A stretch of 64,000 bases of DNA from assembly GCF_030812295.1 (NCBI RefSeq), contig NZ_JAUSSK010000001.1, positions 1-64,000 of the forward strand. Direction: 5' to 3'. Positions 45,181 through 64,000 of this stretch are shown piece after piece. Source of the stretch: Luteibacter jiangsuensis (GTDB lineage Bacteria > Pseudomonadota > Gammaproteobacteria > Xanthomonadales > Rhodanobacteraceae). Under the pieces are notes generated by a model. It ran no database searches. It saw only the letters and a program-made list of their open reading frames with translations, and was not told where the DNA came from. Each line of letters opens with the position of its first letter. Position 1 is the stretch's first letter. Made by a program: the position numbers and the translations under genes.

Positions 45181-45624
45181 CTACCGGACCTCGTCCAGCT
45201 TCATGTAGCCGCCCTCGGAAACGCTGACCACCGAGCGCCGATGGCCTTGCATCTTCACCGCGTCGTCCACCGAAGCGCCGATCGCCGAGGCGGTCTCGGC
45301 CACGCCCACCGGCTTGTTGCCGCGACGCTTCTGCTTTCCCGCGAAGCGGGCGTGGTTGTACCCCGACCAGCTGGTGAACACGACCGCACAGGCGATGGCC
45401 ACGATGAGGATGACGTTGATATCGCCGCCATCGCCGATCGGATCGAGCACATGCAACTGCAGCCAGGCGCTGCGTACACCGAACGCCCACGCGCCCAAGG
45501 TGAGCAAGGGCAGCCACAGGAAGACCCAGAACAGCCAGGCGAAGATGGTGACGGTGGTGAACACGGCCTTTTGCGCCGCCGATTGACGTTCCGGGCGCTG
45601 GATAAGAATGGCTTCGGCTTTCAT
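45181..45624 (-). CDS. pgaD: Poly-beta-1,6-N-acetyl-D-glucosamine synthase subunit PgaD
   Basis: A 147-residue inner-membrane protein with two helices (~22-47 and ~70-90) and a cytoplasmic tail. By family knowledge PgaD forms with PgaC the c-di-GMP-responsive PGA synthase. It starts inside the pgaC stop codon (ATGA overlap), 6 bases after GGGGA. Identification rests mainly on the pgaABCD order and topology, since PgaD sequences vary. Confidence 0.85.
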   Translation of the reverse strand: MKAEAILIQRPERQSAAQKAVFTTVTIFAWLFWVFLWLPLLTLGAWAFGVRSAWLQLHVLDPIGDGGDINVILIVAIACAVVFTSWSGYNHARFAGKQKRRGNKPVGVAETASAIGASVDDAVKMQGHRRSVVSVSEGGYMKLDEVR

Positions 45625-46871: not shown

Positions 46872-48742
46872 CGCGCGGGCTCCCGGTAGGGGTAGTCGGC
46901 CGCCGAGATATAGGGGCGTATCGCCTCCAGGGCGGGGTGGTCGTGGACGAAGTCATCCGGGTAATAACCTATGTGGCGTCCACCCGCGGCCTGCACGGCG
47001 CGCATGCGCGCGCCGAGGTCGCCATCGTCGATCGGCTCGCGTGTTCGCCAGTCGTGGGTCGCGAATTCGAACAGCGTGCGCTCCATGGCGCCGGGGGTGG
47101 CGTTCACCTGGGCGACGAGCTTGCGGTACCAGCCCAGCCGGTCCGCTTGCTGGTCGAGCTGGGGCATCGCCATCACCGCGGTCATGTCGTAGGCACGGTT
47201 GAAGGCTGGCAGGGCCTGCGCGAACCACGCCTCGGCCTTCGGTTGCAGGATCGGCCGCGCGTAGATGTTGCGCGCGGTGAGCAACTGCGGGCGCCAGCGT
47301 TTCATGCGCTCCGCCAGTTCGAGGGTGAAATCGATCAACGCCTGGGTGTTTTGCGCCGGGGTATTCCTAGACCAGGGACCGAGTTGGTCGGTGTCTCGCA
47401 GATAGGCGTCGTCGGAAAACAGCACGCCGGCTTCGTCGGCATGCATGGCCAGGTCTTCATAGACATCGCCGATCAGACGGCGCACCCGGGCGTCGTAGGG
47501 TGCCAGCCGGTAGTGGTCGCCGCCGGCCTTCGGCTCGCCCGCCAGCGTCGGCAGGTCCTTGCCATCGGGGAAGCGGAAGGCCAGCACGGGCATCCACGCA
47601 TAGACTCGAACCCCCGCGCGGGTACGCAACTGCCATGACACGCGCGAGAACAGGTCGGCACGCACGGGGAGGTGGCGGTTCGGGAAATACACGGCGTCCG
47701 CCACGCCATCGCCGTCCGGATCCGCGTACGCCTGCAGCCAGACCTCACTCGGGTGCATGCGCTTGATCCGATCGAGCAGCTTCGAAAGGTTGCGGTCTTG
47801 CTGCGCGGGGTCGGGATCGTACACGTAGTCGAGATCGACCTGCACGGCGCGTGTCGGGTCGACGCGTGTCTGGTGGCGCATCAGCCAGCCGAGGCGGTTG
47901 GCGGTGACGTTACCGCTGACCAGAAGCCGCGGGATCGTGCGCCCCGGGACGAGGTTGGGCAGTTTGTCACCCAGGCTGAAGGTGATCGACATGCCCAGTT
48001 CGCCGGCGATATCGCGGCCTACCTGGGTATAGGCACCGTAGGGCCACGCGATCGCACGAGGCCGTGCGCCGATGTGTTGCTCGATCTCGTCCGCACTGTG
48101 CGCAAGGTCGGTCCGGATGCGCGCTTCATACTCGTCGACCGTTTCGTAACGCTGTTTAGCGGTGTCGTAGGCCAATGCCGAGGCCGTGGGAAGCAGATTG
48201 CCTTGCGGGTTCGCGTTCAGGCCCAGGTGCATCTGCCAGGAGTGCGAGGCGAATTCGACCAGGTGGGACTGGTGCATCTCCACGACCTGTTCCCAGGTGA
48301 GGAAGCACGAGCGGTCGCAATCGGTGCCGTTGTACGGCATGCGTTGCCCCGGCGCCATGTCCATCCAGGAGCCCACCAGTGCCTGTACAGCGGGATAGTT
48401 GTAGGCCCGCAACAGCGGGTAGACACGCGTGTAGAAGCTTTCCAGCCCGTCGTCGAAGGTCAGCAGGACGGCATCGTCGGGCAACGGCGCTCCGCCATGG
48501 CTGGCCTGGACGACCTGGTCGAGGCTCACCACGTTGTAACCGTTGGCCTTGAGCCAGTCGAAATGAGCAATGAGATGATCGGTGCTGATGGCGTCGGGAT
48601 CGCGGTCCGCGTTCAGGCCGACGTCGTCGCGGACATCGTGGTAAGCGAGCACGATGAGGGGCGGCCGCGCAGGCGCGGCCGGCTGCGCGAACGCAGGAAG
48701 CGCAAGCCCCAGCAGGGCAAGCAGGATCAACAGCGGGCGCAT
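46868..48742 (-). CDS. pgaB: PGA N-deacetylase PgaB
   Basis: A 624-residue periplasmic protein that deacetylates PGA before export. The N-terminal deacetylase domain has YHDV, LTFDDG and SHSWQMH (two His spaced as in PgaB metal sites); the C-terminal half is the PgaB glycoside-hydrolase-like domain (VWLQAYADPDGDGVADAVYFPNRHLPVRAD region). The signal peptide ends LALPAFAQ with no cysteine, so unlike E. coli PgaB it does not look like a lipoprotein. Start at 48742 is preferred; ATG 48751, overlapping the pgaA stop, is possible. Confidence 0.93.
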   Translation of the reverse strand: MRPLLILLALLGLALPAFAQPAAPARPPLIVLAYHDVRDDVGLNADRDPDAISTDHLIAHFDWLKANGYNVVSLDQVVQASHGGAPLPDDAVLLTFDDGLESFYTRVYPLLRAYNYPAVQALVGSWMDMAPGQRMPYNGTDCDRSCFLTWEQVVEMHQSHLVEFASHSWQMHLGLNANPQGNLLPTASALAYDTAKQRYETVDEYEARIRTDLAHSADEIEQHIGARPRAIAWPYGAYTQVGRDIAGELGMSITFSLGDKLPNLVPGRTIPRLLVSGNVTANRLGWLMRHQTRVDPTRAVQVDLDYVYDPDPAQQDRNLSKLLDRIKRMHPSEVWLQAYADPDGDGVADAVYFPNRHLPVRADLFSRVSWQLRTRAGVRVYAWMPVLAFRFPDGKDLPTLAGEPKAGGDHYRLAPYDARVRRLIGDVYEDLAMHADEAGVLFSDDAYLRDTDQLGPWSRNTPAQNTQALIDFTLELAERMKRWRPQLLTARNIYARPILQPKAEAWFAQALPAFNRAYDMTAVMAMPQLDQQADRLGWYRKLVAQVNATPGAMERTLFEFATHDWRTREPIDDGDLGARMRAVQAAGGRHIGYYPDDFVHDHPALEAIRPYISAADYPYREPAR

Positions 48743-48747
48743 CGTTC

Positions 48748-50802
48748 TCATTCTCCCCAGTGCAGCGTCAGGTCGAGGACGACGCGGTGCTCGCGGCGGC
48801 CATCGTAGGGTTGGTTGTGCCAGCCGATGCCCCAGCCAAAGTGCACCCCCGGGCCGGTCTGGATCGTCTGGCCATAACGTATGGTGGCCATCCAGTCGGT
48901 GGCGAAGCCTTGTTCGGCGTACTGGCCCACGGCCACGTCGATGCGCTGGGTCACGCTGCGCTCGTAGAACTGGCCGAGCAGGTTTTCCAGCCGGCCGGTG
49001 ACCGCATAGCTGCGGTCGCGGCGCGGATTGAAATACGGCCGATCGGTTTGCGTGTTCATCGATCCACCGAGTTCCAGGCCCCCGTCGAGGGTGAGGTTCG
49101 GCGCCGTATGCAGCCGTTGCGTCAGCGTGGCGAGCCAGCCGGTACGCTTGTTGCCATCGCTGAAGTCGTCGCGCGACAGGCCGAGCCGGGCCTGGGTGAG
49201 TTCGCTGGCGCGCCAGGTCACGGCGGTGTCCAGCGTCTTCGCCGATATCCCGTAGTACTGTGCACGCAGCGGCGTATCTTCGCCGGCGGTGCTGAAATCC
49301 ACGGCCCACGACCAGTGATCGCTCAGCGACCAGTCGAAGCCGGCCTCGATCGCGGTCTTGTTCACATAGCTGTCGGTGGCGGGCAGCACCTGCACATACG
49401 CTTCGATCCCACGGGCGTAGCCGCGGATACCGAGGCCCACGCGGCTGCGCCGAACGTTGCCCTCGGGCAGGTCCGCGGTCGAATACCGGCCGAGGGCGAT
49501 CACGCGCCAGTGGTCGTCGATGAGGGGGCTGGCGATCGTGGCCTGGGTGGTGCCGTCGCGATCGCCGAAGTCGGGGCTGGAGCCCTTGCCCTGTTCGGTG
49601 CCCAGGTCGAACTGCCAGCCCCGTTCGCGATCCCACGAGCGCAGCGCGCGCTCGACGCGGCCGTTGCGATCGGCCAGGGTCTGGGCGAGGGCGAGGTTCT
49701 CGTCCACGCCCTCGTAGTCGTTCAGCGCCCGGCTCGCGTCGGCCTCGCCGATATACGCGCCGACGTCGCGGCGATCGAGCGTACCGGCGATGTTGAAGTC
49801 GTCCTGTGCGCGGCGAGGCCAGCCGCGGGCGAGCTCCACCATGCCCAGTTCGCGGCGGATCTGCGAATTGGCCGGGGCTTCGCGGCTGAGCGGTTCCAGC
49901 CGGGCATACGCTTCCGCCGGCATGTTCACGTATTCGCGCAATGTCGCGGCGTTGAGGTCGGCGTCGACCTTGCGCGCATTCTGGATCGGCAGCCGGATAC
50001 CGGGCACGCGCACCCAGGCCGGCTCCTTCGCGGCCAGTTCGTCGATCGTCTTTAACGCCTTCGCCGTTTCGCCCGCTTCAAGGTAGGCGTACATCAGGCC
50101 GATCCGCGGTTCGCTTTCGTTGGCGCCGTAGGGGCCGGGGTCCTTCGCGATGCTGTCCTCGTAGAGTGCAGCTGCCTCGGCGGGCCGGCGTTTCACCAGC
50201 AAGGCATCGGCCACGGCACGCTGCACGTACGGTGGCAACTCGACGCCCCGCTTGTGCAAGGCGTCATAACGGTTGACCGCCTCGTCCGCGCGGCCGGCAT
50301 GATCGAGCGCGACGAGCAGGTCGAGTTCCGCACGCTGGCGCAAGCCGGGCGGCAGCTGCGGGTCGTCGGCCATGCGCCGTGCGTCGGCCACCGCGCGGTC
50401 GGCTTCCGCGTAGGGTCGAGCGGGGTCGGCGGGCTCGCCGTCGGCCCAGCGGATCTCCTGGGCGACATGGTCGGCGTCGCGGCGGTACCTTGCCGCGGCG
50501 TCCGGGGCCGGTCGCAGGCTTTCCGCCAGTTCCTTGGCGCGCGTCGTTGCGCCCAATTCCGTCAATAATGTGACGTTGAGCGCCTGTGCCTCGGTATCGG
50601 CGGGCCAGCGGTCGAGGATCGTCTGGCAGAGGGCGAGAGCGTCCACGCGGTGGCCCGCGTCGCGTTCCTGATGCAGCCTGGCCATCAGCGCGTCACGCTC
50701 CGCTGGCCTGTCGGCGGCCAAGGCCAACGGGCCGTGAAGTGCCAGCAACAATGCCAGGCACAACCGTCCCCTCGCCACACGCATGCTGCGCGGAGCTGTC
50801 AT
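48748..50802 (-). CDS. pgaA: PGA outer-membrane export porin PgaA
   Basis: A 684-residue protein: signal peptide (RLCLALLLALHGPLALAA), an N-terminal TPR-rich periplasmic region (~40-400) and a C-terminal beta-barrel ending HWGE. It would export partly deacetylated PGA through the outer membrane. The ATG at 50802 has GGGACGGA 6 bases upstream; the earlier ATG at 50817 has no spacing for a ribosome site. It is first in the pgaABCD operon, as in E. coli. Confidence 0.92.
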   Translation of the reverse strand: MTAPRSMRVARGRLCLALLLALHGPLALAADRPAERDALMARLHQERDAGHRVDALALCQTILDRWPADTEAQALNVTLLTELGATTRAKELAESLRPAPDAAARYRRDADHVAQEIRWADGEPADPARPYAEADRAVADARRMADDPQLPPGLRQRAELDLLVALDHAGRADEAVNRYDALHKRGVELPPYVQRAVADALLVKRRPAEAAALYEDSIAKDPGPYGANESEPRIGLMYAYLEAGETAKALKTIDELAAKEPAWVRVPGIRLPIQNARKVDADLNAATLREYVNMPAEAYARLEPLSREAPANSQIRRELGMVELARGWPRRAQDDFNIAGTLDRRDVGAYIGEADASRALNDYEGVDENLALAQTLADRNGRVERALRSWDRERGWQFDLGTEQGKGSSPDFGDRDGTTQATIASPLIDDHWRVIALGRYSTADLPEGNVRRSRVGLGIRGYARGIEAYVQVLPATDSYVNKTAIEAGFDWSLSDHWSWAVDFSTAGEDTPLRAQYYGISAKTLDTAVTWRASELTQARLGLSRDDFSDGNKRTGWLATLTQRLHTAPNLTLDGGLELGGSMNTQTDRPYFNPRRDRSYAVTGRLENLLGQFYERSVTQRIDVAVGQYAEQGFATDWMATIRYGQTIQTGPGVHFGWGIGWHNQPYDGRREHRVVLDLTLHWGE

Positions 50803-50807
50803 CGAAT

Positions 50808-50847
50808 TCCGTCCCATCCTGTAAACATGATCCCTATCGGCCGTTCC
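50808..50847 (-). promoter_or_regulatory. GGA-rich pgaA leader, candidate CsrA/RsmA target
   Basis: On the minus strand five GGA motifs fall within 40 bases before the pgaA start, including UUUACAGGAUGGG, close to the CsrA consensus ACANGGANGU, and one overlapping the ribosome site. In E. coli the pgaA leader is a multi-site CsrA target. Confidence 0.5.
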
Positions 50848-50860
50848 GGATGGTCATTAC

Positions 50861-50912
50861 CGGCACGGAGTAAAAAAAGAAGAACGGTATTTTCGCTGCA
50901 AGCACCGTGCCG
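50861..50912. promoter_or_regulatory. Inverted repeat upstream of pgaA
   Basis: CGGCACGG (50861-50868) and CCGTGCCG (50905-50912) are perfect 8-base arms around a 36-base A-rich spacer. It lies about 60-110 bases upstream of pgaA and could bind a regulator or fold in the leader. The rest of the 50803-51028 gap shows no firm promoter. Confidence 0.4.
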
Positions 50913-51028
50913 AAGATAGTCGGCGCAGTCGATACGCACCCCGGCCATCGCGGCTAGACCGAAAGGCATAGTCGCCACGCAAGCTCCCTCATCGCTTGTC
51001 GACGTGGCGTGTGCGCCGCCGGGCGCGC

Positions 51029-52372
51029 TCAGGTCCGCGCGGATTCGATGGGCAGCAGCAGGGTCGCGGCGAGTCCTTGTGCCGTATTGCCCAGGACGAC
51101 TTCGCCGCCATGGCCGCGCACGATGCTGCGCGCGGTGGGCAAGCCGAGGCCGACGCCACCGGTGTTCCGGTTTCGCGAACTTTCACCGCGGAAGAAGGGA
51201 CGGAACACCGTTTCCTGCAGCGACTCGGGAATGCCCGGCCCGTTGTCCAGGATGCGCAGCCGCACATGCGCAATGTCGGTATCGAGTTCGACATGGGTCT
51301 TGCCGCCATAGCGCATGGCATTTCCCAGCAGGTTCGTGATGGCCCGTTTCAGCGCGATGGGGCGGCCTTCGTAGATCAACCGGGTGGGGCCGGCGTAGGT
51401 CACCTCGCCACCTTCGTCGCGACCGTCGTCGATCACGGTCTGGACCAGTCCGGCGAGGTCGAAGCGGGTAGGTGCTTCTTCCTCGCCGTCGCCACGGAAG
51501 AAGGCGAGGGCGGCGTCGATCATGGAGCGCATCTCGTCCACGTCGGCGAATAGCTTGCGCCGTTGTTCGGCCTCGTCGATGTACTCGCCACGCAGGCGGA
51601 TACGCGTGAGCGGCGCGCGCAGGTCGTGGGAAATCGCGGCCAGCATGTCCGTGCGGTCGCGGACGAACCGCTGGATGCGTCCCTGCATCTCGTTGAAAGC
51701 GCGCATCGCCACGCGAAGTTCCAGTGGCCCCTCGGGGCGGATCGCCGGTGCTTTCACATCGGCGCCGAAACGTTCGGCGGCCGCGGCGAGCCGGCGCATG
51801 GGGCGGGAGAGGTGCCGGCTCGCGACGGCGGCCACGACCACGCTGGAGAACATCACGAACAGGCCGATCACCAGGTAGCGGGTGTGCGGATGGACGCCCC
51901 AGATGCGCTTGGCGGTATCGAAAGTCAGCCAGCTGCCGTCCTTCAGCTGCACGGCGAGCATGTAATGGGTCTGCCCGGAGCGGCCCTCCGGGTCGTCGTC
52001 GTGGGGATCGAACGCTTCCATCCGCCGCTGCCCGAGTATCTCCACCAGCGGTTCCTTGAAGGACGTCGCATCCTGGTCCGACGGCGGCATCGGCACGTCG
52101 TTGCGCGATGCGTACCAGTGCACGCCGTATTCCTCGTGATCGGAGATCGCGGCGGCCATGCGTGGCCGCTCGGCCGCAGGGCAGGCCTCGACGGCTTTCA
52201 GCATGATGCCCATCTGCTGCAAAAGCCCGCTCTGGACGATATCGGGACGCGCCCACACGCTGGCGAAGGCGATGACGGCGGCATTGAGCAGCACGACCAT
52301 CAGGATGGCGAAGACGATGTTCACCATCATCCAACCGGCCAACGTATTCAGGCGCCAGTTGAAGACGCTCAT
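51029..52372 (-). CDS. Sensor histidine kinase, EnvZ-type
   Basis: A 447-residue inner-membrane kinase. Two helices (~13-35 and ~160-185) flank a periplasmic sensor domain of about 125 residues; then a HAMP domain (SRHLSRPMRRLAAAAERFG), the H-box ISHDLRAPLTRIRLRGEY and the ATP-binding N, G1 and G2 boxes (NLLGNAMRYGG, LDNGPGIP, GVGLGLPTA). It overlaps its response regulator by 4 bases (ATGA). Stimulus unknown; pgaABCD lies 226 bases downstream on the same strand. Confidence 0.93.
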   Translation of the reverse strand: MSVFNWRLNTLAGWMMVNIVFAILMVVLLNAAVIAFASVWARPDIVQSGLLQQMGIMLKAVEACPAAERPRMAAAISDHEEYGVHWYASRNDVPMPPSDQDATSFKEPLVEILGQRRMEAFDPHDDDPEGRSGQTHYMLAVQLKDGSWLTFDTAKRIWGVHPHTRYLVIGLFVMFSSVVVAAVASRHLSRPMRRLAAAAERFGADVKAPAIRPEGPLELRVAMRAFNEMQGRIQRFVRDRTDMLAAISHDLRAPLTRIRLRGEYIDEAEQRRKLFADVDEMRSMIDAALAFFRGDGEEEAPTRFDLAGLVQTVIDDGRDEGGEVTYAGPTRLIYEGRPIALKRAITNLLGNAMRYGGKTHVELDTDIAHVRLRILDNGPGIPESLQETVFRPFFRGESSRNRNTGGVGLGLPTARSIVRGHGGEVVLGNTAQGLAATLLLPIESART

Positions 52373-53079
52373 GCGCTCTCCACCGGCACGGCGAACATGT
52401 AGCCGGCGTTGCGGATGGTGCGGATGAGTTCCGGTGCCGTCGCGTCGTAGCCGAGCTTGCGGCGCAGGCGGCTCACCTGCACGTCGGTGCTGCGATCGAA
52501 AGCCTCGTGGCGATTGCCGCGTGCGAGATCGATCAGTTGCTCGCGCGTCAGCACGCGCTGCGGATGTTCGACGAAGGCCAGGAGGAGATCGAATTCACCG
52601 CCGGAGAGTGGCACGAGCGTGCCGTCGCCGGCGCGAAGCTCGCGACGCGCGACGTCGAGTTGCCAGCCGGCGAAGCGCACGGCCACGCGTGTGCCGGTCG
52701 TGGGACCCGGTAGCGCGGCGTCCGCACGGCGCAGGATGGCCCGCACGCGTGCCAGCAATTCGCGTGGGTCGAACGGTTTCGCCAGGTAATCGTCGGCGCC
52801 CACTTCGAGGCCGACGATGCGTTCGGACGTGGCGCTGGTGGCGGTCACCATGATGATCGGCAGCGACGACTTCGCGCGCACGCGGCGGCAAAGCGACAAG
52901 CCGTCTTCGCCGGGAAGCATGAGGTCCAGGGTCATCAGGTCGTAGCTGCCACGGGCCAGCCGTTCGTCCATCGCCACGCCGGACGAGGCCACGTCCACCT
53001 CGAAGCCATTACGTTCGAGGAAGCGCCGGAGAAGGGCACCGATTTCCTCGTCGTCGTCTACTACCAGGATGCGTCTCAA
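52369..53079 (-). CDS. OmpR-family response regulator
   Basis: A 236-residue transcription regulator: receiver (~1-120) with VVDDDEE, phospho-Asp in DLMLPGEDG and Lys in AKPFDP, then a winged-helix DNA-binding domain (GGEFDLLLAFVEHP, DVQVSRLRRKLG, IRTIRNAGYMF). No ATG fits the N terminus; the best start is TTG at 53077-53079 (MRRILVVDDDEEIG). It forms an operon with the kinase and diverges from the MipA operon 163 bases away. Confidence 0.9.
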   Translation of the reverse strand: MRRILVVDDDEEIGALLRRFLERNGFEVDVASSGVAMDERLARGSYDLMTLDLMLPGEDGLSLCRRVRAKSSLPIIMVTATSATSERIVGLEVGADDYLAKPFDPRELLARVRAILRRADAALPGPTTGTRVAVRFAGWQLDVARRELRAGDGTLVPLSGGEFDLLLAFVEHPQRVLTREQLIDLARGNRHEAFDRSTDVQVSRLRRKLGYDATAPELIRTIRNAGYMFAVPVESA

Positions 53080-53242
53080 GCCCGTCGGTCTCTTTGCGAA
53101 AACTCCGTCGTTATAGCCGCTGGCGTGCGCCAAGTCATTTATTTCACGGCGGAAACAATATGTCGCCGCTGCAGGAAAACAGACAAATCGAAGCAAACGA
53201 CGATGGGCACGCTTGCCACACCTCTTCCCACCAGGTACCACG

Positions 53243-53482
53243 ATGCGCCTGCCCGTCCTCGTTCGTTCCCGGCTGCGCGGCCGTCCACGCGATCCCTCCG
53301 TCGAGGCGATCGCGATCGCCTCGCGTCTCGAGCCCGATCCCACGCTCCGCGACGATTGGTTCCACCACGATCCCATCCACGAACTTCGCGGCATGACCGC
53401 GGAACGGGCTATCGCCTCGGGCAAGGCAGGCGATCTCGTGCGCCTGCTACGTTCCATCGAAGCGGGGAGGCGTGGACGATGA
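53243..53482 (+). CDS. Small protein resembling the DUF2384 (MbcA/ParS/Xre antitoxin C-terminal) domain
   Basis: A 79-residue basic protein with no signal peptide. The C-terminal half (WFHHDPIHELRGMTAERAI, then KAGDLVRLLRSIEAGRRG) is like the toxin-binding domain of MbcA/ParS antitoxins, but no RES-type toxin is adjacent and the helical DNA-binding part is missing. The gene overlaps mipA by 4 bases (ATGA). It may be a domain reused for another purpose; function unknown. Confidence 0.45.
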   Translation: MRLPVLVRSRLRGRPRDPSVEAIAIASRLEPDPTLRDDWFHHDPIHELRGMTAERAIASGKAGDLVRLLRSIEAGRRGR

Positions 53483-54228
53483 CGCGTCGCTTCTTCTCCG
53501 TGGCGATGGGCGGTTTGCTTGCCGTGCCGTCGGTCACGCTCGCGGCCGAGGATGCCAGTTCCTCCTGGGCGCTCGGTGCGGGCTTCGGCGTGGTACGCCG
53601 GCCTTACAAGGGCATGGACAACGACACCCTGGCGTTCCCTTTCGTGCGCTACGAGAGCCAACGACTCAACATTCTCGGCACCGGCGCCGACTTCAAGTTC
53701 GCTCCGGTCGGTGCGTTTTCGTTCCGCCTGCGTGCCCGCTACGATTTCGGCGATGGCTACGACGCTGGCGATTCCTCGTTCCTGCGCGGGATGGCCGACC
53801 GGAAGGGTGGGTTCCGGGCAGGTGCCGCCGTGGTCTGGCGGCCCGGTCAGGTGGAGATGTCGCTCGACTGGCTGGCGGGCATCGGCAGCGCCAAGGGAAA
53901 AAAGGCCAACCTGAGCTTCGCGGTGCCGTTCCATGCGGGTCCGTTGCGGATCACGCCATACGTCGCCGCCGGATGGGTCGACCGGACCTATGCCACCTGG
54001 TATTTCGGCGTCCGCCCGTCCGAGGCGCGGCCAGGCCGTCCCGCCTACGAGGCGGACGCGACGGTGAACTTCATGGCAGGCGTTCGCGCCGAGTATCCGT
54101 TCGCCCGGCGCCATGCCTTGTTCCTGGATGTGAGCGGCACGCGCTACGGAAGCGAGATCCGCGACAGTCCTATCGTCGATCGCTCGAATTCGACGATGGT
54201 CCGCGTCGGCTACGCCTACCGGTTCTGA
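53479..54228 (+). CDS. MipA/OmpV-family outer-membrane protein
   Basis: A 249-residue beta-barrel-type protein with a signal peptide (VAMGGLLAVPSVTLAAE). Alternating strands such as WALGAGFGVVRRPYKGMD and FSFRLRARYDFGDGYDAGDSSF, and the C-terminal aromatic strand VRVGYAYRF, fit MipA/OmpV. MipA of E. coli scaffolds murein-synthesising enzymes; other members are porin-like or induced by stress. The gene is coupled to the small upstream gene and faces a two-component system, which may control it. Confidence 0.85.
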   Translation: MTRRFFSVAMGGLLAVPSVTLAAEDASSSWALGAGFGVVRRPYKGMDNDTLAFPFVRYESQRLNILGTGADFKFAPVGAFSFRLRARYDFGDGYDAGDSSFLRGMADRKGGFRAGAAVVWRPGQVEMSLDWLAGIGSAKGKKANLSFAVPFHAGPLRITPYVAAGWVDRTYATWYFGVRPSEARPGRPAYEADATVNFMAGVRAEYPFARRHALFLDVSGTRYGSEIRDSPIVDRSNSTMVRVGYAYRF

Positions 54229-54234
54229 TGCACG

Positions 54235-54426
54235 TCACGAGGTGACCGATGCCTGCAAGGCCGCAGCCAGGCCGGCGTCGCCGCTCAGTACGTCCTTCCA
54301 GGCAAGCGAGATGCCGTTTCGCTTGCCCTTGGCCACCAGTTTCAGGCCGTCGGGGTCGATGGTGAGGGTATAGGCCTGGCCGTCGACCTCGAGTTCGCGT
54401 TTCAGTGGTTTATCCAGTGGTGTCAT
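54235..54426 (-). CDS. Small hypothetical protein
   Basis: A 63-residue soluble protein starting at ATG 54426 with AAGGAG 8 bases upstream. LEVDGQAYTLTIDPDGLKLVAKGKRNGI reads as two beta strands, so it may be a small beta-sandwich. I recognise no family. It converges with mipA 6 bases apart and diverges from the toxin-antitoxin operon. Confidence 0.6.
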   Translation of the reverse strand: MTPLDKPLKRELEVDGQAYTLTIDPDGLKLVAKGKRNGISLAWKDVLSGDAGLAAALQASVTS

Positions 54427-54510
54427 GGGGCGTGCTCCTTGATGAGGGGCCCAGCATGTAGTCAGCCTTGTCTGGGGCTGGTGTAGGCGTCCCAAAAAGG
54501 GAAATTAGGG

Positions 54511-54535
54511 TATATTGGACCCAGAGCCCCTCTGG
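54511..54535 (+). promoter_or_regulatory. Promoter -10 and candidate operator of the Phd-zeta operon
   Basis: TATATT (54511-54516) looks like a -10 box. Just after it CCAGAG-CCC-CTCTGG (54521-54535) is a perfect 6-base inverted repeat between the -10 and the start codon, well placed for antitoxin autorepression. No clear -35 box is seen. Confidence 0.45.
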
Positions 54536-54544
54536 AGTGACGCC

Positions 54545-54901
54545 ATGGCCCTGACCCTCAAGCTCGACGCCATCGAAGACCTTCCGCATACCGCGGCTTC
54601 CGATGTGAAGAAACTCGGCTGGCGCGGCGTGATGCGGGCGATCGGCCGTACGGGCAAGGTGGTGGTGACGAACCACAGCGAACCCGAGGCGGTGATCCTT
54701 TCCGCGGAGGAATACGGGGCCATCATGCGCGCGCTCAACGACGCCGGGTCGCAGCACGAGTCCGCGCTCGATGCGCTTCGCCACCGTTTCGATGAACGCC
54801 TGGCCTCGCTGCAGGCCGACGATGCCGGCGATCGCTTGCGTTCCCTCATGCGTGGCCCGACGACCCTGGGCGGAAAGGTCAAGGCCGGGGACACGCATTG
54901 A
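54545..54901 (+). CDS. Phd/YefM-like antitoxin
   Basis: A 118-residue protein. The N-terminal part is Phd/YefM-like: TAASDVKKLGWRGVMRAIGRTGKVVVTNHSEPEAVILSAEEYGAI has the strand-helix pattern and the N-P-x-A-V-I-L-like segment of that DNA-binding fold. The C-terminal half is a charged helix that could bind a toxin. The next gene, a zeta-like kinase, starts inside its stop codon (TTGA). Phd proteins normally pair with Doc or RelE toxins. Confidence 0.7.
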   Translation: MALTLKLDAIEDLPHTAASDVKKLGWRGVMRAIGRTGKVVVTNHSEPEAVILSAEEYGAIMRALNDAGSQHESALDALRHRFDERLASLQADDAGDRLRSLMRGPTTLGGKVKAGDTH

Positions 54902-55527
54902 AGGGGCGTCCCGTCCTGTATGTGTTGGCGGGAGTGAACGGTGCTGGCAAGAGTTCCATCGGCGGTTACCGCCTGCGGCAGGCCGGGCTGGACTGGTTCG
55001 ACCCGGACACCTTCGCGCGCGAACTGGTCGCCGATACCGGATGCGCGCAGGTCGAAGCGAACGCCGCCGCATGGAACGAAGGCATGCGCCGACTCGATGA
55101 GGCGGTGGCGTGCGGCACGGTCCACGCGTTCGAAACCACACTGGGCGGCAACACGGTGCCCGCCAAGATCGCGGACGCCACGCGGACGCACGACGTGCTC
55201 ATGTGGTTTTGCGGACTGTCGTCGCCCGAGCGGCATGTCGCTCGTGTCGCGGCGCGCGTTGCCGCCGGCGGGCACGACATTCCGGAAGCGAAGATACGCG
55301 AACGCTACGTCGCGGCGCTGGAGAACCTCATCGCCTTGCTGCCCGCGATCGCCTTGCTGCAGGTATACGACAACAGTGTCGACGTCGCGCGCGGAGAAGC
55401 GATTCCCGATCCGTTGCTTGTCGCCGAGATCGCCCGTGGGCGCTTGGTGAGCCCCAGCGATATCGATGTCTTGCGGCGCACGCCGGATTGGGCAAAGCCC
55501 ATTCTCGAAGCGGCGCTTTCGTCATGA
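54898..55527 (+). CDS. Zeta-toxin-like P-loop kinase
   Basis: A 209-residue P-loop protein with Walker A GVNGAGKSS (residues 12-20, Lys18), then DWFDPDTFARELVADTG and a catalytic-type FETTLGG, as in zeta and PezT-like kinases that phosphorylate UDP-N-acetylglucosamine. It begins with TTG overlapping the antitoxin stop (MKGRPVLYVLAG) and overlaps chrA by 4 bases. Position next to a Phd-like gene supports a toxin role, but a housekeeping small-molecule kinase is not excluded. Confidence 0.72.
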   Translation: MKGRPVLYVLAGVNGAGKSSIGGYRLRQAGLDWFDPDTFARELVADTGCAQVEANAAAWNEGMRRLDEAVACGTVHAFETTLGGNTVPAKIADATRTHDVLMWFCGLSSPERHVARVAARVAAGGHDIPEAKIRERYVAALENLIALLPAIALLQVYDNSVDVARGEAIPDPLLVAEIARGRLVSPSDIDVLRRTPDWAKPILEAALSS

Positions 55528-56711
55528 GTGCAGGGGGCGGCGCATGGGAAGTGGGCACAGCCTTCCTCAAGCTCGGCTTGACCTCGTTCGGCGGCCCGGT
55601 GGCGCACCTGGGCTATTTCCGCCGCGAGTTCGTCGAGCGGCGACGCTGGCTCGACGAGGAACACTTCAGCCAGCTGCTGGCGCTATGCCAGTTCCTGCCG
55701 GGCCCGGCCAGCAGCCAGCTAGGCTTTTCGATCGGCCTGCTTCGCGCGGGATGGGCAGGCGCCATCGCCGCTTTCGTCGCCTTCACCTTGCCCTCGGTGC
55801 TCCTGCTGCTTGCGTTCGCCACATTGAGCGTCTATCTGGCCGGGCCGTGGGGACAGGGCGCGATCCACGGACTGAAGCTGGTTGCCGTGGCGGTCGTCGC
55901 CCACGCGGTGCTTGGCATGGGCCGAACGTTGACCCCGGATCGCACTCGCCTCCTCATGGCCGCGGCGGCCGCGGGCGCGATCGCCTTCGGCACGAGTCCC
56001 GCGATGCAGTTGGGCGTCGTGGCGTGCGGTGCCCTGCTGGGTCCATGGTTGTGCCGCGGCGTGCATGCGCGACAGGGCGAGACGTTCCCGCTGGCCTATG
56101 GCCGGCCCCTGGGTTTCGCCTTGCTCTGCGTGTTCGGGTTGCTGCTCCTGCTCTCCTTGATCGTCGCACCGGGCCTGTCGCCGCTGGGGCAGGTGGCCGG
56201 TGCGTTCTATCGGGCCGGTGCGCTCGTGTTCGGCGGCGGGCATGTCGTGCTGCCGCTGTTGAAGCAGGCCGTCGTCGATCCCGGTTGGATAGGCAACGAC
56301 ACCTTCCTCGCGGGCTATGGCGCGGCGCAGGCGGTGCCCGGGCCGATGTTCTCGCTGTCCGCGTTCCTTGGTTATCGCTTGCAGGGAGAGCAGGGCGGAT
56401 TCGCCGGCGCGCTGGTCGGCTTGCTGTCGATCTTCCTGCCGGGCCTGTTGCTGGTCGGCGGCGCCTTGCCGTTCTGGCGCGCGCTGGCCATGCGCAACGA
56501 CGCGGCGCGCATGCTCGCCGGCGTGAACGCGGTGGTGGTCGGCATGCTGGCGTACGCGTTTTACGATCCGGTGTGGATCAGCGCGGTGCGCGATGTGCCG
56601 GACTTCGCCATCGCCGCCGCGGCATTCGGCTTGCTCATCGCGCGCTGGTCCGCGTTGCCGGTGGTCGCGCTATGCGTCGCGGTGTCCGTGTTGCGCGTGG
56701 CGTTGGCTTGA
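55524..56711 (+). CDS. chrA: Chromate transporter ChrA
   Basis: A 395-residue inner-membrane protein with two homologous halves (long-chain CHR family), each with the motif FGGPVAHLGYF or FGGGHVVLPLL followed by a PGP-containing segment (LCQFLPGPASSQLGF; QAVPGPMFSLSAFLGY). By family knowledge it exports chromate using the proton gradient. It starts inside the zeta-like stop (ATGA), so it appears translationally coupled to a toxin-antitoxin pair. No chrB regulator is adjacent. Confidence 0.93.
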   Translation: MSAGGGAWEVGTAFLKLGLTSFGGPVAHLGYFRREFVERRRWLDEEHFSQLLALCQFLPGPASSQLGFSIGLLRAGWAGAIAAFVAFTLPSVLLLLAFATLSVYLAGPWGQGAIHGLKLVAVAVVAHAVLGMGRTLTPDRTRLLMAAAAAGAIAFGTSPAMQLGVVACGALLGPWLCRGVHARQGETFPLAYGRPLGFALLCVFGLLLLLSLIVAPGLSPLGQVAGAFYRAGALVFGGGHVVLPLLKQAVVDPGWIGNDTFLAGYGAAQAVPGPMFSLSAFLGYRLQGEQGGFAGALVGLLSIFLPGLLLVGGALPFWRALAMRNDAARMLAGVNAVVVGMLAYAFYDPVWISAVRDVPDFAIAAAAFGLLIARWSALPVVALCVAVSVLRVALA

Positions 56712-56717
56712 AGGCCC

Positions 56718-57179
56718 TCAAAGCAACTTGCGGTACACGATGAAGCCGGACTTCTCCGCCACCTTGTCGTAGAGCTGCATGGCATGCGTGTTCGTCTCGT
56801 GGGTCTGCCAGTAAACGCGCCCCGCGCCGGCCTTCTTCGCCTCCGCGTACACACGCTCGATCAAGGCACGTCCGATGCCGGTGCCGCGCGAGGATGGCGT
56901 CGTGAACAGATCCTGCATGTAGCAGTTGTCGCTGGTGCTGGTGGTCGTGCGATGGAACAGGAAGTGCGCCAGGCCGAGCAACAGGCCCGAGCGCTCGGCG
57001 ACCAGGGCGTGCATGGGTTCGGTGGCGTCGAGGAAACGCGCCCAGGTCGCCAGCGTGATGGGCTCCGCCAGCGCGGTCGCTCCTTCCCGGCCGTAGAACG
57101 CGTTGTAACCGTCCCACAGGGGCTTCCAGGCGGCGAAGTCCCGGTTCGTCACGTATCTGATCGCGAAGGGCTCGGTCAT
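56718..57179 (-). CDS. GNAT-family N-acetyltransferase
   Basis: A 153-residue acetyl-CoA-dependent transferase. Motif A is SSRGTGIGRALIERVYAEAKKAG with the R/QxxGxG/A acetyl-CoA loop, and HETNTHAMQLYDKVAEKSGFIVYRK is the end of the fold. The substrate is unknown. I use ATG 57179 (MTEPFAIRY); GTG at 57185 is a close alternative. It converges with chrA and diverges from the NodT operon. Confidence 0.9.
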   Translation of the reverse strand: MTEPFAIRYVTNRDFAAWKPLWDGYNAFYGREGATALAEPITLATWARFLDATEPMHALVAERSGLLLGLAHFLFHRTTTSTSDNCYMQDLFTTPSSRGTGIGRALIERVYAEAKKAGAGRVYWQTHETNTHAMQLYDKVAEKSGFIVYRKLL

Positions 57180-57265
57180 GTTCACTCAACCCAGGAAGTT
57201 CGGGCTTCGATGATGGCGCAATCGCGGCACGCGCGCCACGCAACGGAAGCTCCCGGCGTTTCGTC

Positions 57266-57279
57266 TTGATCTCGATCAA
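57266..57279. promoter_or_regulatory. Perfect FNR/Anr-type box
   Basis: TTGAT-CTCG-ATCAA matches the FNR/Anr consensus TTGAT-N4-ATCAA exactly. On the plus strand a -10-like CATGCT (57301-57306) sits where a class II activated promoter would need it, about 41 bases from box centre to transcript start. It lies about 100 bases before the NodT gene and about 90 before the divergent GNAT gene. Confidence 0.7.
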
Positions 57280-57375
57280 GCCGTCAGGGAGCCGCCCGGT
57301 CATGCTGTGAACCGACTTCGGATTCTAAGGTGCATGCGCCCATGACGGTTCACTGGCGACCCGGCATCTATCGGC

Positions 57376-58851
57376 ATGGCTGACTATGGCGCGTCATCGG
57401 CATGCACCCGGCGGGGTGCGGTTTCCGTGCTCTGCGTCCTGGTGAGTGGATGCGTATCCCTCGCGCCAGCGCCCGTGACGCCACCCTTGCCCGTCGCCGC
57501 CGACTGGCCGGCCGATGCACCGCACGATCCGGACGCGAACGTGCATGCGCCGGAACTGCCCTGGGAAAGGTATTTTGTCGAACCGTCATTGCAACAGCTG
57601 ATCCAGTCCGCCCTGCGGAACAATCGCGACCTGCGCATCGCCGTCCTGCGGGTCGAAGAGGCACGAGCGGCCTATCGGATCAGCCGTGCGGACGCGTGGC
57701 CGACGCTGGCGGTGGGCATGCAGGCCTCGCGCGCCCGCGTTCCGGGCGACCTGAACCTCACCGGTCACTCGCTGGTCTCCGGTGACGACGAGGCCTATGT
57801 CGGCATCAGCAGCTGGGAGCTCGACCTGTGGGGACGTGTGCGCGACCTGAAGTCGGGCGCTTTGGAGACGTATCTGGCAACCGATGCGGCCCGGGCCGCG
57901 GTGCGCGTAAGCCTCATCGCGCAAGTCGCCGACGGCTACCTCGGACTGCGCGAGCTGGACGAGCGCGTGGCACTTGCCCGACGAACGGAGGAAAGCCGCG
58001 CGGAGGCATTTCGCATCTTCACGCGGCGCCACGATGTCGGTGCCATCTCGAAGCTGGAGTTGACCGAAGTCCAGACCCTGCTCACCCAGGCTCAGGCCTT
58101 GCGAACCCAACTCGAGCAAGCACGCGCCATCCAGGCACATGCATTGGGGCGCCTGGTGGGCGACGGTACCGACGCCTTGACGGCATCCGGGCACTTCGAT
58201 GACGCCGCGATCTTCGGTGAACTCCAGGTGGGACTGCCGTCGCGGCTGCTGGTCGACCGCCCCGATATCATGGCCTCCGAGCACCAGTTGCGTGCCGCGG
58301 ACTTCAGTATCGGCGCGGCGCGGGCCGCGTTCTTCCCTCGCATCGCGTTGACCGCCACCTGGGGAACGGCCAGTGCCGAGCTGGACGGCCTGTTCGACGC
58401 CGGCAGTCGCGCGTGGACCTTCGTGCCGACGTTTTCCTTGCCGATCTTCGACGGTGGCCGTCGTCGTGCGAACCTGGACGTGACCCGGGTGCGCCGGGAG
58501 ATCGCAGTCGCGGATTACGAGAGAACGGTTCAGAACGCCTTTCGCGAGGTCGCCGACGCATTGGCGGCCCGGCAATGGCTGGACCGGCAGGTTCGCTTCC
58601 AGCGCATGACGGTCGACACCCAGATCGAGCGAGCGCGACTGGCGCAGCTTCGCTACGACAGCGGGGCCGCCCCCTATCTCGAGGTGCTCGACGCACAACG
58701 TGCGCTGCTGGCGGCGGAACAGGAATGGGTGCAGGCACGCCGCGCCTTGTTGTCCAGCCGTGTCGCGCTCTATGCGGCGCTGGGTGGCGGTGCCGGTGTC
58801 GATGTCGCGCCGTCGTATTCCTCCACGCCAGCGACGGCGCAGAGCCGATGA
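57376..58851 (+). CDS. NodT-family outer-membrane efflux lipoprotein
   Basis: A 491-residue TolC-like protein anchored as a lipoprotein: signal with lipobox LVSGC (Cys at about residue 26). Two OEP repeats follow ([22 protein letters not shown], then [32 protein letters not shown] and [15 protein letters not shown]). It would form the outer-membrane channel for the exporter encoded by the next three genes. HlyD starts inside its stop codon (ATGA). Confidence 0.93.
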
Positions 58852-59930
58852 TCGCCTTCGACTCCCGAAAGAAGAAGTTGCTGGCCATCGCCGGGGCGGT
58901 CGTGGCGTTGTCGGTGGCGGGGCTCTATGGATGGTTTTCGTTCCACAGCGAAGGCCCGGGCGACGGCTTCGTCAGCGGCAACGGACGCATCGAGGCGACC
59001 GAGATCGACGTGGCGACGAAGTTGGCGGGGCGGGTCGATGCCATCCTGGTCGTGGAGGGGGACTTCGTGAAGGCTGGCCAGCCGCTCGGACGCATGCAGG
59101 TGCAGGTGTTGCAGGCGCAGTACGACGAAGCACGTGCCCAGGAGCAGCAAACCGAGCAGGTGGTGAATGCCGCCGAAGCCCAGGTAGCCGTGCGTGAGAG
59201 CGACGTGGCCGCGGCCGAGGCATTGGTGCGTCAGCGCGAGGCCGAGCTGGATGCGGCGCGTCGTCGGCTCGCGCGCTCCGAGACCCTGTCCAAGGAGGGG
59301 GCGTCTTCCGTGCAGGAACTGGACGACGACCGCGCGCACGCGCGCAGCGCGGAAGCGGCGGTGGCGGCCACGCGGGCACAGGTGGCCGCCGCGAAGGCGG
59401 CGGTGGCCGCGGCTCGCGCGCAGCTTACCGGCGCGCGTTCGTCGGTCATCGCGGCGCAGGCGACGACGGCGAGGGTCGCCGCCGATATCGCCGATAGCGA
59501 GCTGAAAGCTCCCCGTGACGGCAGGGTGCAGTTCCTCGTCGCACAACCGGGTGAGGTGCTGGGCGCGGGCGGTCGCGTGCTGAACATGATCGACTTGTCG
59601 GATGTCTACATGACCTTCTTTCTACCCGAGGCGGTCGCTGGCCGCGTGGCGTTGGGCAGCGAGGCGCACATCGTGCTCGATGCCGCTCCCCAGTATGTCC
59701 TGCCAGCGACGGTGTCGTTCGTGTCGAGTACGGCGCAGTTCACGCCCAAGAGCGTGGAAACGGCCAGCGAGAGGCAGAAGCTGATGTTCCGGGTCAGGGC
59801 GCACATTCCACCGTCGTTGCTTCGCCAGCATCTCAGTCAGGTGAAGACAGGCCTTCCAGGGGTGGCCTGGATTCGCACCGACGCCAGCAAGCCATGGCCG
59901 CCCGGGTTGATTCTCCGGGTGCCGGAGTAG
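58848..59930 (+). CDS. HlyD-family periplasmic adaptor (YhiI-like)
   Basis: A 360-residue membrane-fusion protein with one N-terminal helix ([22 protein letters not shown]), a split biotinyl-lipoyl domain ([33 protein letters not shown]) and a long Ala-rich coiled-coil hairpin (~95-215). The sequence and neighbours match YhiI of E. coli, which partners RbbA and YhhJ. It would link the ABC transporter to the NodT channel. Confidence 0.9.
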
Positions 59931-59933
59931 CGA

Positions 59934-62681
59934 ATGGAGCAGGCGGCTCCCGCGCCGATGGTGGCCCGATTGCGGGCGGTCGGCCTGCGTTACGGGAAAA
60001 CGGTCGCGCTCGACGGCATCGACCTCGACGTTCCCGCAGGCTGCATGGTCGGCGTGATCGGCCCCGACGGGGTCGGCAAGTCGAGCCTCCTGGCGCTGCT
60101 TGCCGGTGCGCGCGCGATCCAGGCCGGCGAGATCGAGGTCTTGGGGGGAAACATGGCCAGCAAGCGCCACCGTGACGATGTCTGCGCGCGGATCGCCTTC
60201 ATGCCCCAGGGTCTGGGCCGGAACCTGTATCCCACCTTGTCGGTGGAGGAGAACCTTCAGTTCTTCGGGCGCCTGTTCGGTCACGGAGCCGCCGAACGTC
60301 GGCGTCGGATCGATGCGCTCACCGACAGTACGGGATTGCGGGCCTTCCTCGACCGGCCGGCCGGAAAACTGTCGGGAGGCATGCGCCAGAAGCTCGCCTT
60401 GTGCTGCGCCTTGATCCACGATCCGGACTTGCTGATCCTCGACGAACCCACGACGGGCGTCGATCCGCTTGCGCGCGTGCAGTTCTGGAACCTGATCGCT
60501 CGCTTGAGGCAATCGTCGCCGGGCATGAGCGTGATCGTGGCCACGGCGTACATGGACGAGGCGCAACGCCTCGACCAGTTGGTGGCCATGGACGGAGGGA
60601 GGGTATTGGCGAGCGGCACGCCGCAGGCTCTGCTCTCCCGCACCGGCGCGGCTTCCCTGGAGGATGCGTTCATCGAACTTCTCCCCGCGGCACGCAAGCG
60701 TGGATGGGCGCCCGTGACGATCCCTCCGCTACCGGCCAGCGCGACGGAGGAGATCGCGATCGAGGCCACCGACTTGACGAAACGCTTCGGCGACTTCGTC
60801 GCGGTGGACCACGTCAGCCTGCGCATCCGCCGTGGCGAGATTTTCGGTTTCGTGGGCTCCAACGGATGTGGGAAGACCACGACCATGAAGATGCTCACGG
60901 GCCTGCTGCCGGCGAGCGAGGGACGGGCCAGGCTGTTCGGCCGTGAAGTGGACGCCCGCGACTACGCCACGCGCGGACGGGTCGGCTACATGTCGCAATC
61001 GTTCTCACTCTACGGCGAACTGACGGTGCGACAGAACCTCATGTTGCACGCGCGCTTGTTCCGCGTGCCCGTGGCGGAACGGGGTGCGCGCGTGGAAGAG
61101 ATGGAGCAGCGCTTCGACCTGTCCGGGGTACGCGACAGCTTGCCCGATCGTTTGCCGCTGGGTATGCGCCAACGGCTGTCGCTTGCGGTGGCGATGGTGC
61201 ACCGGCCCGAGCTGCTGATCCTGGACGAACCGACTTCAGGCGTGGATCCCGTGGCACGCGATGGCTTCTGGCGACTCCTGGCCGAGTTGTCACGACGGGA
61301 TGGAGTCACGATCTTCATCTCGACCCATTTCATGAACGAAGCCGAGCGCTGCGACCGGATATCGATGATGCATGCCGGCAAGGTGCTGGACAGCGACGCG
61401 CCGGCATCGTTGGTGAAGAAGCGTGGCGTGGCTACCCTGGAAGATGCCTTCATCAGTTACCTGACCGAAGCGGGCGCCGGTGGTGAGCCGGTCGCGCTAC
61501 CCGAGGTCTCGAAGGTGGCTTCCGCCGACGTCGGTGGGAAACCGGTGGACAGGCATCGGCGTTTCAGCGTGCAGCGCCTGTTGACCTATGGCTGGCGCGA
61601 AGCGCTGGAATTGCGCCGCGATCCCGTGCGGGCCACGCTGGCTCTGGCTGGTTGCGTGATCCTCATGTTCGTCGTCGGTTATGGCATAAGCCTGGATGTC
61701 GAGAATCTCCGTTACGCGGTGCTGGATCGCGACCAGAGCGCGTTGAGCCAGAACTATGCGCTGAACCTGGCTGGGTCACGCTACTTCCTGGAGCGACCGC
61801 CACTTTCCAGTTACGAGGAGCTTGATCGGCGCATGCGCGACGGCGAGCTGGCACTGGCCATCGAATTGCCGTCGGGCTTCGAACGGGAGGTCCTTCGTGG
61901 CGGTCCCGCGCAGGTAGGTGCATGGATCGACGGCGCGATGCCGATGCGCGCCGAAACCGTGCAGGGCTACGTGCAGGGCATGCATCAGCAATGGTTGGAC
62001 ACGCAGGCTCGCATGCGGCTCGGCACGGCGACGGCGGCGGCCGATGTGCAGACACGCTACCGTTATAACCCCGATGTACGCAGCCTTCCGGCGATGGTGC
62101 CGGCGGTGATCCCCCTCTTGCTCCTGCTGCTTCCGGCGATGCTGACCGCGCTCGCCGTGGTGCGGGAAAAGGAAACCGGTTCCATCGTCAACCTGCATGT
62201 CACCCCGGTGACCCGCACCGAGTTCCTGTTGGGCAAGCAACTGCCTTACGTGGCGCTGGCGATGGTCAACTTCGGGACGATGAGCCTGTTGGCGGTCACC
62301 CTCTTCGGTGTTCCTGTCAGCGGCAGTTACGCTTTCCTGCTGCTTTCCGCGTTGGTCTTCAGCATCTGCGCCACCGGCCTGGGCCTGGTGGCCTCCGCCG
62401 CCACCCGAAGCCAGATCGCCGCCATGTTCATCACCCTCGTGGGTACCCTCATTCCCGCCATCCAGTTCGGCGGCCTGATCGATCCGGTCAGTTCGTTGAG
62501 CGGCATGGGGCGTCTTATCGGCACGATCTATCCCGTCAGCTACATGTTCACCATCAGCCGTGGCGTGTTCAACAAGGGCCTGGGCATCGTCGACCTGTAT
62601 GGCTCGCTGTGGCCGTTGCTGGTGTCGGCACCGGTGATCGTCGGCGCGGCCGTCGCCCTGCTTCGAAAACAGGACCGGTAG
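59934..62681 (+). CDS. rbbA: RbbA-like ABC transporter: two ATPase domains fused to an ABC-2 permease
   Basis: A 915-residue protein (E. coli RbbA 911). Two nucleotide-binding domains lie in the first ~530 residues: Walker [17 protein letters not shown] with [15 protein letters not shown], then [16 protein letters not shown] with a variant signature [15 protein letters not shown]; both have LLILDEPT Walker B motifs. The C-terminal ~350 residues are an ABC-2 permease with about six helices. RbbA has been reported as ribosome-bound, but the operon with HlyD and NodT genes argues for export here. It follows the HlyD gene by 3 bases. Confidence 0.93.
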
Positions 62682-62683
62682 GC

Positions 62684-63808
62684 ATGCCCTCGATCGCCAA
62701 CATCTTCCGGCTGGGCGTGAAGGAACTGTGGAGCCTGGCCCGGGATCCGATGATGCTCGTGTTGATCGTCTATACGTTCACCGTATCGGTGTACACGGCG
62801 GCGACGGCCATGCCGGAAACCCTGCACAACGCCCCCATCGCCATCGTGGACGAGGACGGGTCGCCGTTGTCCGCACGCTTGTCGTCGGCGTTCTACCCGC
62901 CCCAGTTCACCAAGCCGGTGCTCATCGGCATGGCCGATGTCGATCCGGGCATGGACGCGGGTCACTACACGTTCGTCCTCGATATCCCGCCGAATTTCCA
63001 GCGCGATGTGTTGGCCGGCGACGGTGCCCAACTCCAGTTGAACGTGGACGCGACCCGCATGAGCCAGGCGCTGACCGGAAGTGCCTACGTGCAGCAGATA
63101 GCCCTGGGCGAGGTGGACGAGTTCGTGCGCCGGTATCGGGGCCAGAGTGCGCCGCCGGTGGAACTTGCCTTGCGCGCGCGCTTCAATCCGGGGCTGGACA
63201 AGAGCTGGTTCGGTGGCCTCATGGAGGTGATCGACAATGTCACGATGCTGTCGATCATCCTCGCCGGTGCCGCGCTCATACGGGAACGCGAGCACGGCAC
63301 GATCGAACACCTGCTGGTGATGCCGGTGTCGCCGCTTGAAATCATGCTGGCCAAGATATGGTCGATGGGGGCGGTCGTGTTGCTTGCGGCAAGCCTGTCG
63401 CTGTACTTCGTCGTTCGTGGACTCCTGCACGTGCCTGTGAGCGGATCGGTGCCGCTGTTCCTGGCAGGGGCCGCGTTATGCGTGTTCGCGACGACGTCGA
63501 TGGGCATCTTCATGGCGACGCTGGCACGCGGCATGCCGCAGTTCGGCCTGCTGCTGATCCTCACGCTCATTCCATTGCAACTGCTCTCCGGCGGCGTCAC
63601 GCCCCGTGAAAGCATGCCGCCTTTCGTGCGATTCCTGATGCAGGCGGCGCCGACCACGCATTTCGTCGAACTGGCCCAGGCCATACTGTTTCGCGGCGCA
63701 GGCATTCAAACGGTATGGAAGCCATTCCTCGCCCTGCTGGCGATCGGCACGATACTTTTCCTCGTGTCGCTCGCACGTTTTCGCAAGACGGTAGGGCAGA
63801 CGAACTGA
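62684..63808 (+). CDS. ABC-2-type permease (YhhJ-like)
   Basis: A 374-residue inner-membrane permease with one N-terminal helix, a large periplasmic domain (~50-175) and five or six C-terminal helices (ALIREREHGTIEHLLVMPVSPLEIMLAKIW is the conserved ABC-2 coupling region). In E. coli yhhJ follows rbbA. With the permease half of RbbA it would complete a heterodimeric membrane part. It starts 2 bases after rbbA. Confidence 0.92.
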   Translation: MPSIANIFRLGVKELWSLARDPMMLVLIVYTFTVSVYTAATAMPETLHNAPIAIVDEDGSPLSARLSSAFYPPQFTKPVLIGMADVDPGMDAGHYTFVLDIPPNFQRDVLAGDGAQLQLNVDATRMSQALTGSAYVQQIALGEVDEFVRRYRGQSAPPVELALRARFNPGLDKSWFGGLMEVIDNVTMLSIILAGAALIREREHGTIEHLLVMPVSPLEIMLAKIWSMGAVVLLAASLSLYFVVRGLLHVPVSGSVPLFLAGAALCVFATTSMGIFMATLARGMPQFGLLLILTLIPLQLLSGGVTPRESMPPFVRFLMQAAPTTHFVELAQAILFRGAGIQTVWKPFLALLAIGTILFLVSLARFRKTVGQTN

Positions 63809-63827
63809 CGGCCGTCGCCGCCATGGC

Positions 63828-64000
63828 CTACACGGCAGCGGAGGTGGCGCTCCCTGCAAGCATGAGTCGCCACAGTCCCGTCACCATCAGCCAGAATCCG
63901 GTGAGAAAGCCGATGATGGCGATCGAGTTTCCCGGCCAACCGATCACCAGGAGGATCGCGAGCAGGATCGAGAGCAGGCCATCGAAAAGCACCCAGCCCC
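63828..64000 (-). CDS. HdeD/DUF308-like membrane protein, 3' end only
   Basis: Only the last 57 codons are in the window. WVLFDGLLSILLAILLVIGWPGNSIAIIGFLTGFWLMVTGLWRL has the WxLxDGxLSIxLGxxxxxxWP pattern of HdeD, an acid-resistance membrane protein, with two hydrophobic helices. The start lies beyond base 64000. Confidence 0.75.
   Translation of the reverse strand, partial: GWVLFDGLLSILLAILLVIGWPGNSIAIIGFLTGFWLMVTGLWRLMLAGSATSAAV

Follow-up and report, generated by a model that had tools for sequence, protein, structure and literature searches.

The window, i.e. the whole stretch of 64,000 nucleotides analysed here (contig NZ_JAUSSK010000001.1 of the soil bacterium Luteibacter jiangsuensis, positions 1 to 64,000), holds three tightly packed genes preceded by an operator-like element:

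54491..54522, + strand: operator-like array with a 9-bp period, conserved upstream of phd across relatives
54491-54501, + strand: CCCAAAAAGGG, promoter-proximal palindrome and first part of the array, read from the sequence
54499-54507, + strand: GGGAAATTA, array part, read from the sequence
54508-54516, + strand: GGGTATATT, array part, read from the sequence
54511..54516, + strand: -10-like box TATATT inside the array, read from the sequence; its columns are conserved in the family alignment
54517-54522, + strand: GGACCC, last array part, read from the sequence
54545..54901, + strand: phd-type antitoxin gene, 118 aa, ATG at 54545, assigned by profile matches and a fold model
54898..55527, + strand: gene of a short zeta-type P-loop kinase, presumed toxin, 209 aa, TTG start, assigned by AlphaFold/Foldseek and residue conservation
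55524..56711, + strand: chrA, gene of a long-chain chromate transporter, 395 aa, TIGR00937 E 9e-89

All three reading frames are intact, and each neighbouring pair overlaps by four bases, as the sequence-only reading of this DNA had it: TTGA at 54898-54901 combines the phd stop with the kinase start, and ATGA at 55524-55527 the kinase stop with the chrA start. Position 54511, where that reading let its stretch begin, is the start of the TATATT box and not the phd ATG (54545).

The kinase of Luteibacter is a marginal member of its family by profile score: Zeta_toxin (PF06414) matches it with an E of 0.002 and 18 bits, below the cut-off of 22.3, and is matched by 54 of 59 kinase relatives (best E 2.4e-11); a weak AAA_33 match was also found in the profile search. 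When the PDB was searched by sequence, the kinase and its profile found just weak shikimate-kinase-type P-loop matches. More was learned from the fold comparison: the top 12 Foldseek matches of the AlphaFold model (pLDDT 93.7) in the PDB are AvrRxo1, zeta and PezT, followed at lower ranks by matches that include metabolic P-loop kinases of related fold. Invariant or near-invariant in the 59 relatives are the P-loop residues G12, G17, K18 and S19 as well as D37, E79, R116, R120 and H126. The predicted structure is that of a zeta P-loop kinase with the catalytic Lys, Asp and Arg pattern of the PF06414 family. Matched by published descriptions rather than by superposition, this pattern resembles that of zeta, for which PMC4938570 gives K46, T47, D67 and R158 as catalytic residues, and that of a short Mycobacterium tuberculosis kinase (Lys15, Ser16, Asp36, Arg116, His122; PMC6362051). 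The UDP-GlcNAc-binding motif of zeta kinases, GTxR (PMC6362051), is absent from the kinase; the position reads ETTLGG, strongly conserved across the relatives, and because of this replacement the substrate is probably other than UDP-GlcNAc.

The protein encoded upstream falls into the Phd/YefM family by both profile and predicted fold. Its match to TIGR01552 lies above the cut-off, and PF02604, which matches 54 of 54 Phd homologues, scores the Luteibacter protein at 27.8 bits (E 2.2e-6), just below the cut-off of 29.8. The AlphaFold model (pLDDT 82) has the strand-helix-strand-strand-helix core seen in Phd/YefM, and its nearest Foldseek matches are YefM/Phd antitoxins, with a probability of up to 1.0 and a best E of only 0.007. 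Two segments are conserved: DVKKxGWRGVM in the core and LxGKVKAG in the C-terminal tail, which lies beyond the DNA-binding fold.

That a zeta-type kinase has a Phd-fold partner, as had been read from this one locus, proved to be real and conserved in many proteobacteria. A GTDB scan for the kinase yielded at least 553 encoding loci among at least 592 matched stretches; the 80 best, which come from Lysobacteraceae, Burkholderiales and further groups, were assessed for adjacency with tblastn and by direct reading of frames, since a simple GC-frame gene caller mis-called some of these. A Phd gene lies directly upstream of the kinase in 78 of these 80 best loci, the Phd homologue ending at most 100 nt from the kinase start in 73 and 100-180 nt away in five; in the two others, Phd lies 785 nt upstream (L089) or the contig ends (L061). 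Further loci from the order all have a Phd match (24 of 24, weak in L185). The 4-nt overlap recurs in 31 loci, as TTGA every time, and the start codons differ between the partners: the kinase begins with TTG in 35 of 66 cases, phd with ATG in 64 of 66 as picked by a script that favoured ATG for phd, the pattern expected where more antitoxin than toxin is to be made. The pair has the gene order of type II toxin-antitoxin systems, with a small antitoxin-type gene upstream that overlaps or abuts its conserved partner. The distance matrices of Phd and kinase correlate with r = 0.74 (n = 62 pairs, permutation maximum 0.235), a value to which host relatedness contributes, and the flanking genes differ between loci, the commonest neighbour cluster occurring in at most 12. 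Phd-family genes being common, an orphan of this kind might have come to lie beside a kinase gene by chance; set against the pairing in nearly all sampled loci of several proteobacterial orders, the co-divergence of the partners and their shared operator, this is next to inconceivable. At one locus with a distant kinase (L030; 46%, 8747-9355, - strand), the adjoining upstream frame is divergent and apparently Phd-like, and was missed by blast with the Luteibacter Phd as query.

The palindrome, noted in the sequence-only reading as well placed for autorepression, turned out to be part of a larger operator-like element that is found family-wide. Upstream of phd, G/C triplets alternate with A/T blocks at a period of 9 bp, and the pattern runs out over a TATATT/TATAAT box. 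Of 84 phd upstreams, 53 contain GGSTAYWWT (57 sites versus 0.6 expected in shuffles); after dereplication to a Phd identity below about 68%, the motif is present in 25 of 40 and in none of 125 control upstreams taken at these loci. The G/C-A/T autocorrelation at lag 9 is 0.34 in the dereplicated set and 0.03 in the controls. The array of Luteibacter, GGGAAATTAGGGTATATT, has a single match in its own 4.3-Mb genome, even allowing one mismatch. Conservation across the family together with uniqueness in the genome speaks for an operator that serves this locus alone, with Phd as the simplest candidate to bind it; the array is thus probably the operator of the antitoxin, which would bind there and may repress its own synthesis by occluding the -10 box. 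A sigma-70 consensus scan found no strict promoter, so it is the conserved TATATT/TATAAT box that supports speaking of a promoter here. Three Phd-kinase pairs of greater divergence, from Stenotrophomonas (L085, L091, L100), lack the 9-bp array and share AAACAGGAGTA upstream in its place; operator and Phd may diverge together.

How does this pair relate to known systems? Compared with epsilon/zeta and PezAT (PF06414), it shares the zeta P-loop fold, the catalytic Lys, Asp and Arg and an antitoxin gene directly upstream, but the partner is of Phd/YefM type by profiles and Foldseek, not epsilon or HTH-PezA, and the kinase is short (209 aa) with ETTLGG in place of GTxR. The expectation that zeta kinases normally go with epsilon stands in part: a Phd partner is non-standard relative to epsilon/zeta, but zeta is not strictly bound to epsilon (PMC6504116, PMC6362051), as TASmania includes HTH_3.Zeta_toxin pairs and lists ParD_like.Zeta_toxin as a possible new family (PMC6504116), and the short M. 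tuberculosis kinase has a ribbon-helix-helix protein as its antitoxin (PMC6504116, PMC6362051). This last system, the non-canonical PezAT-like Rv0367c-Rv0366c, is similar in its short zeta kinase (197 aa) without GTxR, in a DNA-binding antitoxin of non-epsilon fold and in a substrate thought to be other than UDP-GlcNAc (PMC6362051); its antitoxin is of ribbon-helix-helix type (ParD_like.Zeta_toxin, PMC6504116), in contrast to Phd/YefM in Luteibacter. The nearest PDB fold to the kinase, AvrRxo1, belongs with Arc1 to the zeta:epsilon superfamily and, according to the parts of PMC4938570 and PMC5087710 drawn on here, has a zeta-like site without the conserved UDP-GlcNAc contacts and acts on NAD(P)-type metabolites; unlike the Luteibacter kinase, it is a larger secreted effector, and those parts do not present Arc1 as a Phd-like protein. 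Phd-Doc and YefM-YoeB (PMC2701414), conversely, provide the antitoxin fold, the antitoxin-first operon and a palindrome at the promoter, but no zeta partner, and the operator-like element of Luteibacter differs in being a 9-bp-periodic array. The partners listed for PHD antitoxins by Makarova et al. 2009 are Fic/Doc, PIN, RelE and MazF-like proteins, with no zeta (PMC2701414). No description of a Phd-zeta pairing was found in a library of open-licence papers, and the supplementary pair tables of TASmania may include it. Each of the two families is already known and carries a name in databases; it is their pairing, together with the operator array, that seems undescribed.

Taken together, the segment 54545-55527 is best explained, with a probability of about 75%, as a chromosomal type II toxin-antitoxin module made up of two genes, one for a Phd-type protein and one for a short zeta kinase, the toxicity of the kinase being deduced from sequence and predicted fold. 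It could operate in the following manner: The Phd/YefM-type protein would be antitoxin and autorepressor at once. Its N-terminal fold would bind the 9-bp-periodic operator across the -10 box, and the kinase would be bound and blocked by the long helix together with the conserved tail at the C-terminus (LxGKVKAG). Loss of the antitoxin would free the kinase, a small-molecule kinase of short zeta fold, which may then phosphorylate an essential metabolite, probably not UDP-GlcNAc, such that growth stops. Against a toxin-antitoxin pair speak the sub-threshold Zeta_toxin score of the Luteibacter copy and the 785-nt gap in L089. Some zeta-like P-loop kinases may be enzymes without toxicity, and repression could be the sole role of the Phd-like protein; a small-molecule kinase of metabolism that has a Phd-type repressor of its own would fit the metabolic kinases of related fold among the lower Foldseek ranks and the derivation of toxicity from sequence and predicted fold. 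We consider this unlikely: the distribution is patchy with no conserved metabolic neighbours, the overlapping order is antitoxin-first with a TTG-started kinase, the folds closest to the kinase are those of zeta toxins and not of metabolic kinases, and the Phd tail is conserved beyond the DNA-binding fold. Odds are about even that the toxin-antitoxin module of Luteibacter represents a widespread undescribed family, in which a Phd/YefM protein would neutralise a short zeta-fold kinase phosphorylating some other metabolite than UDP-GlcNAc, with autoregulation by cooperative Phd binding along the 9-bp array.

The third gene has a different standing. By profile score, ChrA is a full member of the long-chain CHR chromate transporters (TIGR00937 as above; PF02417, E 2e-72), but its place behind a toxin-antitoxin pair is seen only in the L. 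jiangsuensis genome. It is not part of a chr operon, its neighbours being the kinase and a GNAT gene, with no chrB or other chr genes. The overlap with the kinase stop implies translational coupling, though lineage-specific, and chrA is probably co-transcribed and translationally coupled with the kinase. In this arrangement the sequence-only reading had seen a hint of a link to metal export, which would be maintained or switched with the module. A rival reading would be a three-gene unit whose toxin-antitoxin operator controls chromate export, efflux being switched or stabilised with the module. Such a unit would agree with the ATGA overlap, which leaves no space between the two genes for a separate promoter of chrA, and with a second adjacency on a MAG contig (L046, 1360-3603), where a DUF1259 gene and chrA lie directly upstream of phd in mirror arrangement; that chrA, however, is 29% identical to the Luteibacter gene, and its adjacency is probably a coincidence. 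L046 is the sole exception among the best 80 GTDB loci, the other 79 having no chrA adjoining the pair, and neither does any other pair-carrying Luteibacter. A PF02417 scan of the 54 kinase-bearing genomes of the order found a chromate transporter above cut-off in 13, at the pair only in L. jiangsuensis and in none of the other 53; three members of the genus have a close chrA, which lies away from any Phd-kinase pair. With about 100 loci read, two cases of adjacency are compatible with chance, and one of the two was why the window had been selected. The proposed coupling to metal export was thus not borne out, and a three-gene unit is decidedly improbable. A role of chrA as a conserved third component was rejected on the basis of the 80 best GTDB loci, the 24 order loci, the genus and the 54-genome scan. 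Most likely, chrA is an incidental rider of the toxin-antitoxin pair, a local accident rather than a conserved part of the module, which would have come to lie behind the kinase by insertion or recombination in the lineage of L. jiangsuensis, with at most incidental co-regulation.

As to whether the trio is conserved or variably located, the pair is conserved and chrA is not, and the pair sits in a strain-variable region. In the order, the kinase is distributed patchily: of 399 genomes sampled, 54 have it. Within the genus, six of 23 genomes carry the pair, including the one analysed here with its single copy, and 17 do not; identity is 75-79% in four of the others and 48% in the fifth. In a class sample of 369 genomes, the own genome and two others hold a Phd match possibly of the same family. 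In the four close genus genomes, the pair is placed in a strain-variable region with pgaA on the phd side and a tRNA-Ala(cgc) gene on the kinase side, and in three of them a conserved 63-codon frame lies between pgaA and the pair. The flanking features are:

48748-50817 of the window: pgaA, on the phd side of the pair
54235-54423 of the window: conserved 62-63-codon frame adjoining the pair, with identities reaching 97% within the genus
contig 1:64609-64684: tRNA-Ala(cgc), just beyond the window end
contig 66852-67964: gene kept beside tRNA-Ala(cgc) in relatives

The short frame has no Pfam or NCBIfam match and also occurs without the Phd-kinase pair (in G009 and G015). The strain-variable region, about 20 kb long, is bounded by a conserved gene and tRNA-Ala(cgc) (window 45147-64000, continuing on contig 1 to 64684) and contains pga genes, a two-component system, the Phd-kinase-chrA trio, the GNAT gene and a NodT/HlyD/ABC exporter; in G009, which has no pair, the conserved left gene is only about 1.6 kb from the tRNA. 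ARAGORN also called a tRNA-Arg(gcg) at window 49635-49716, opposite strand, within the pgaA coding region, probably a false positive. The pair is further found on some Variovorax megaplasmids, once beside an integrase, where the NCBI names read ‘prevent-host-death family antitoxin’ and ‘zeta toxin family protein’. Phage records gave no match, the only viral-contig relatives being four distant ones (29-34%), and PADLOC defence models have no match at the locus.

The negative result for chrA cautions against inferring co-regulation from one gene overlap. If the toxin-antitoxin reading is true, the modular toxin-antitoxin network would gain a link from Phd to zeta kinases that recurs in proteobacteria, and the pair would provide a testable case for short zeta kinases and their substrates; the family-wide operator-like array makes autoregulation directly testable.
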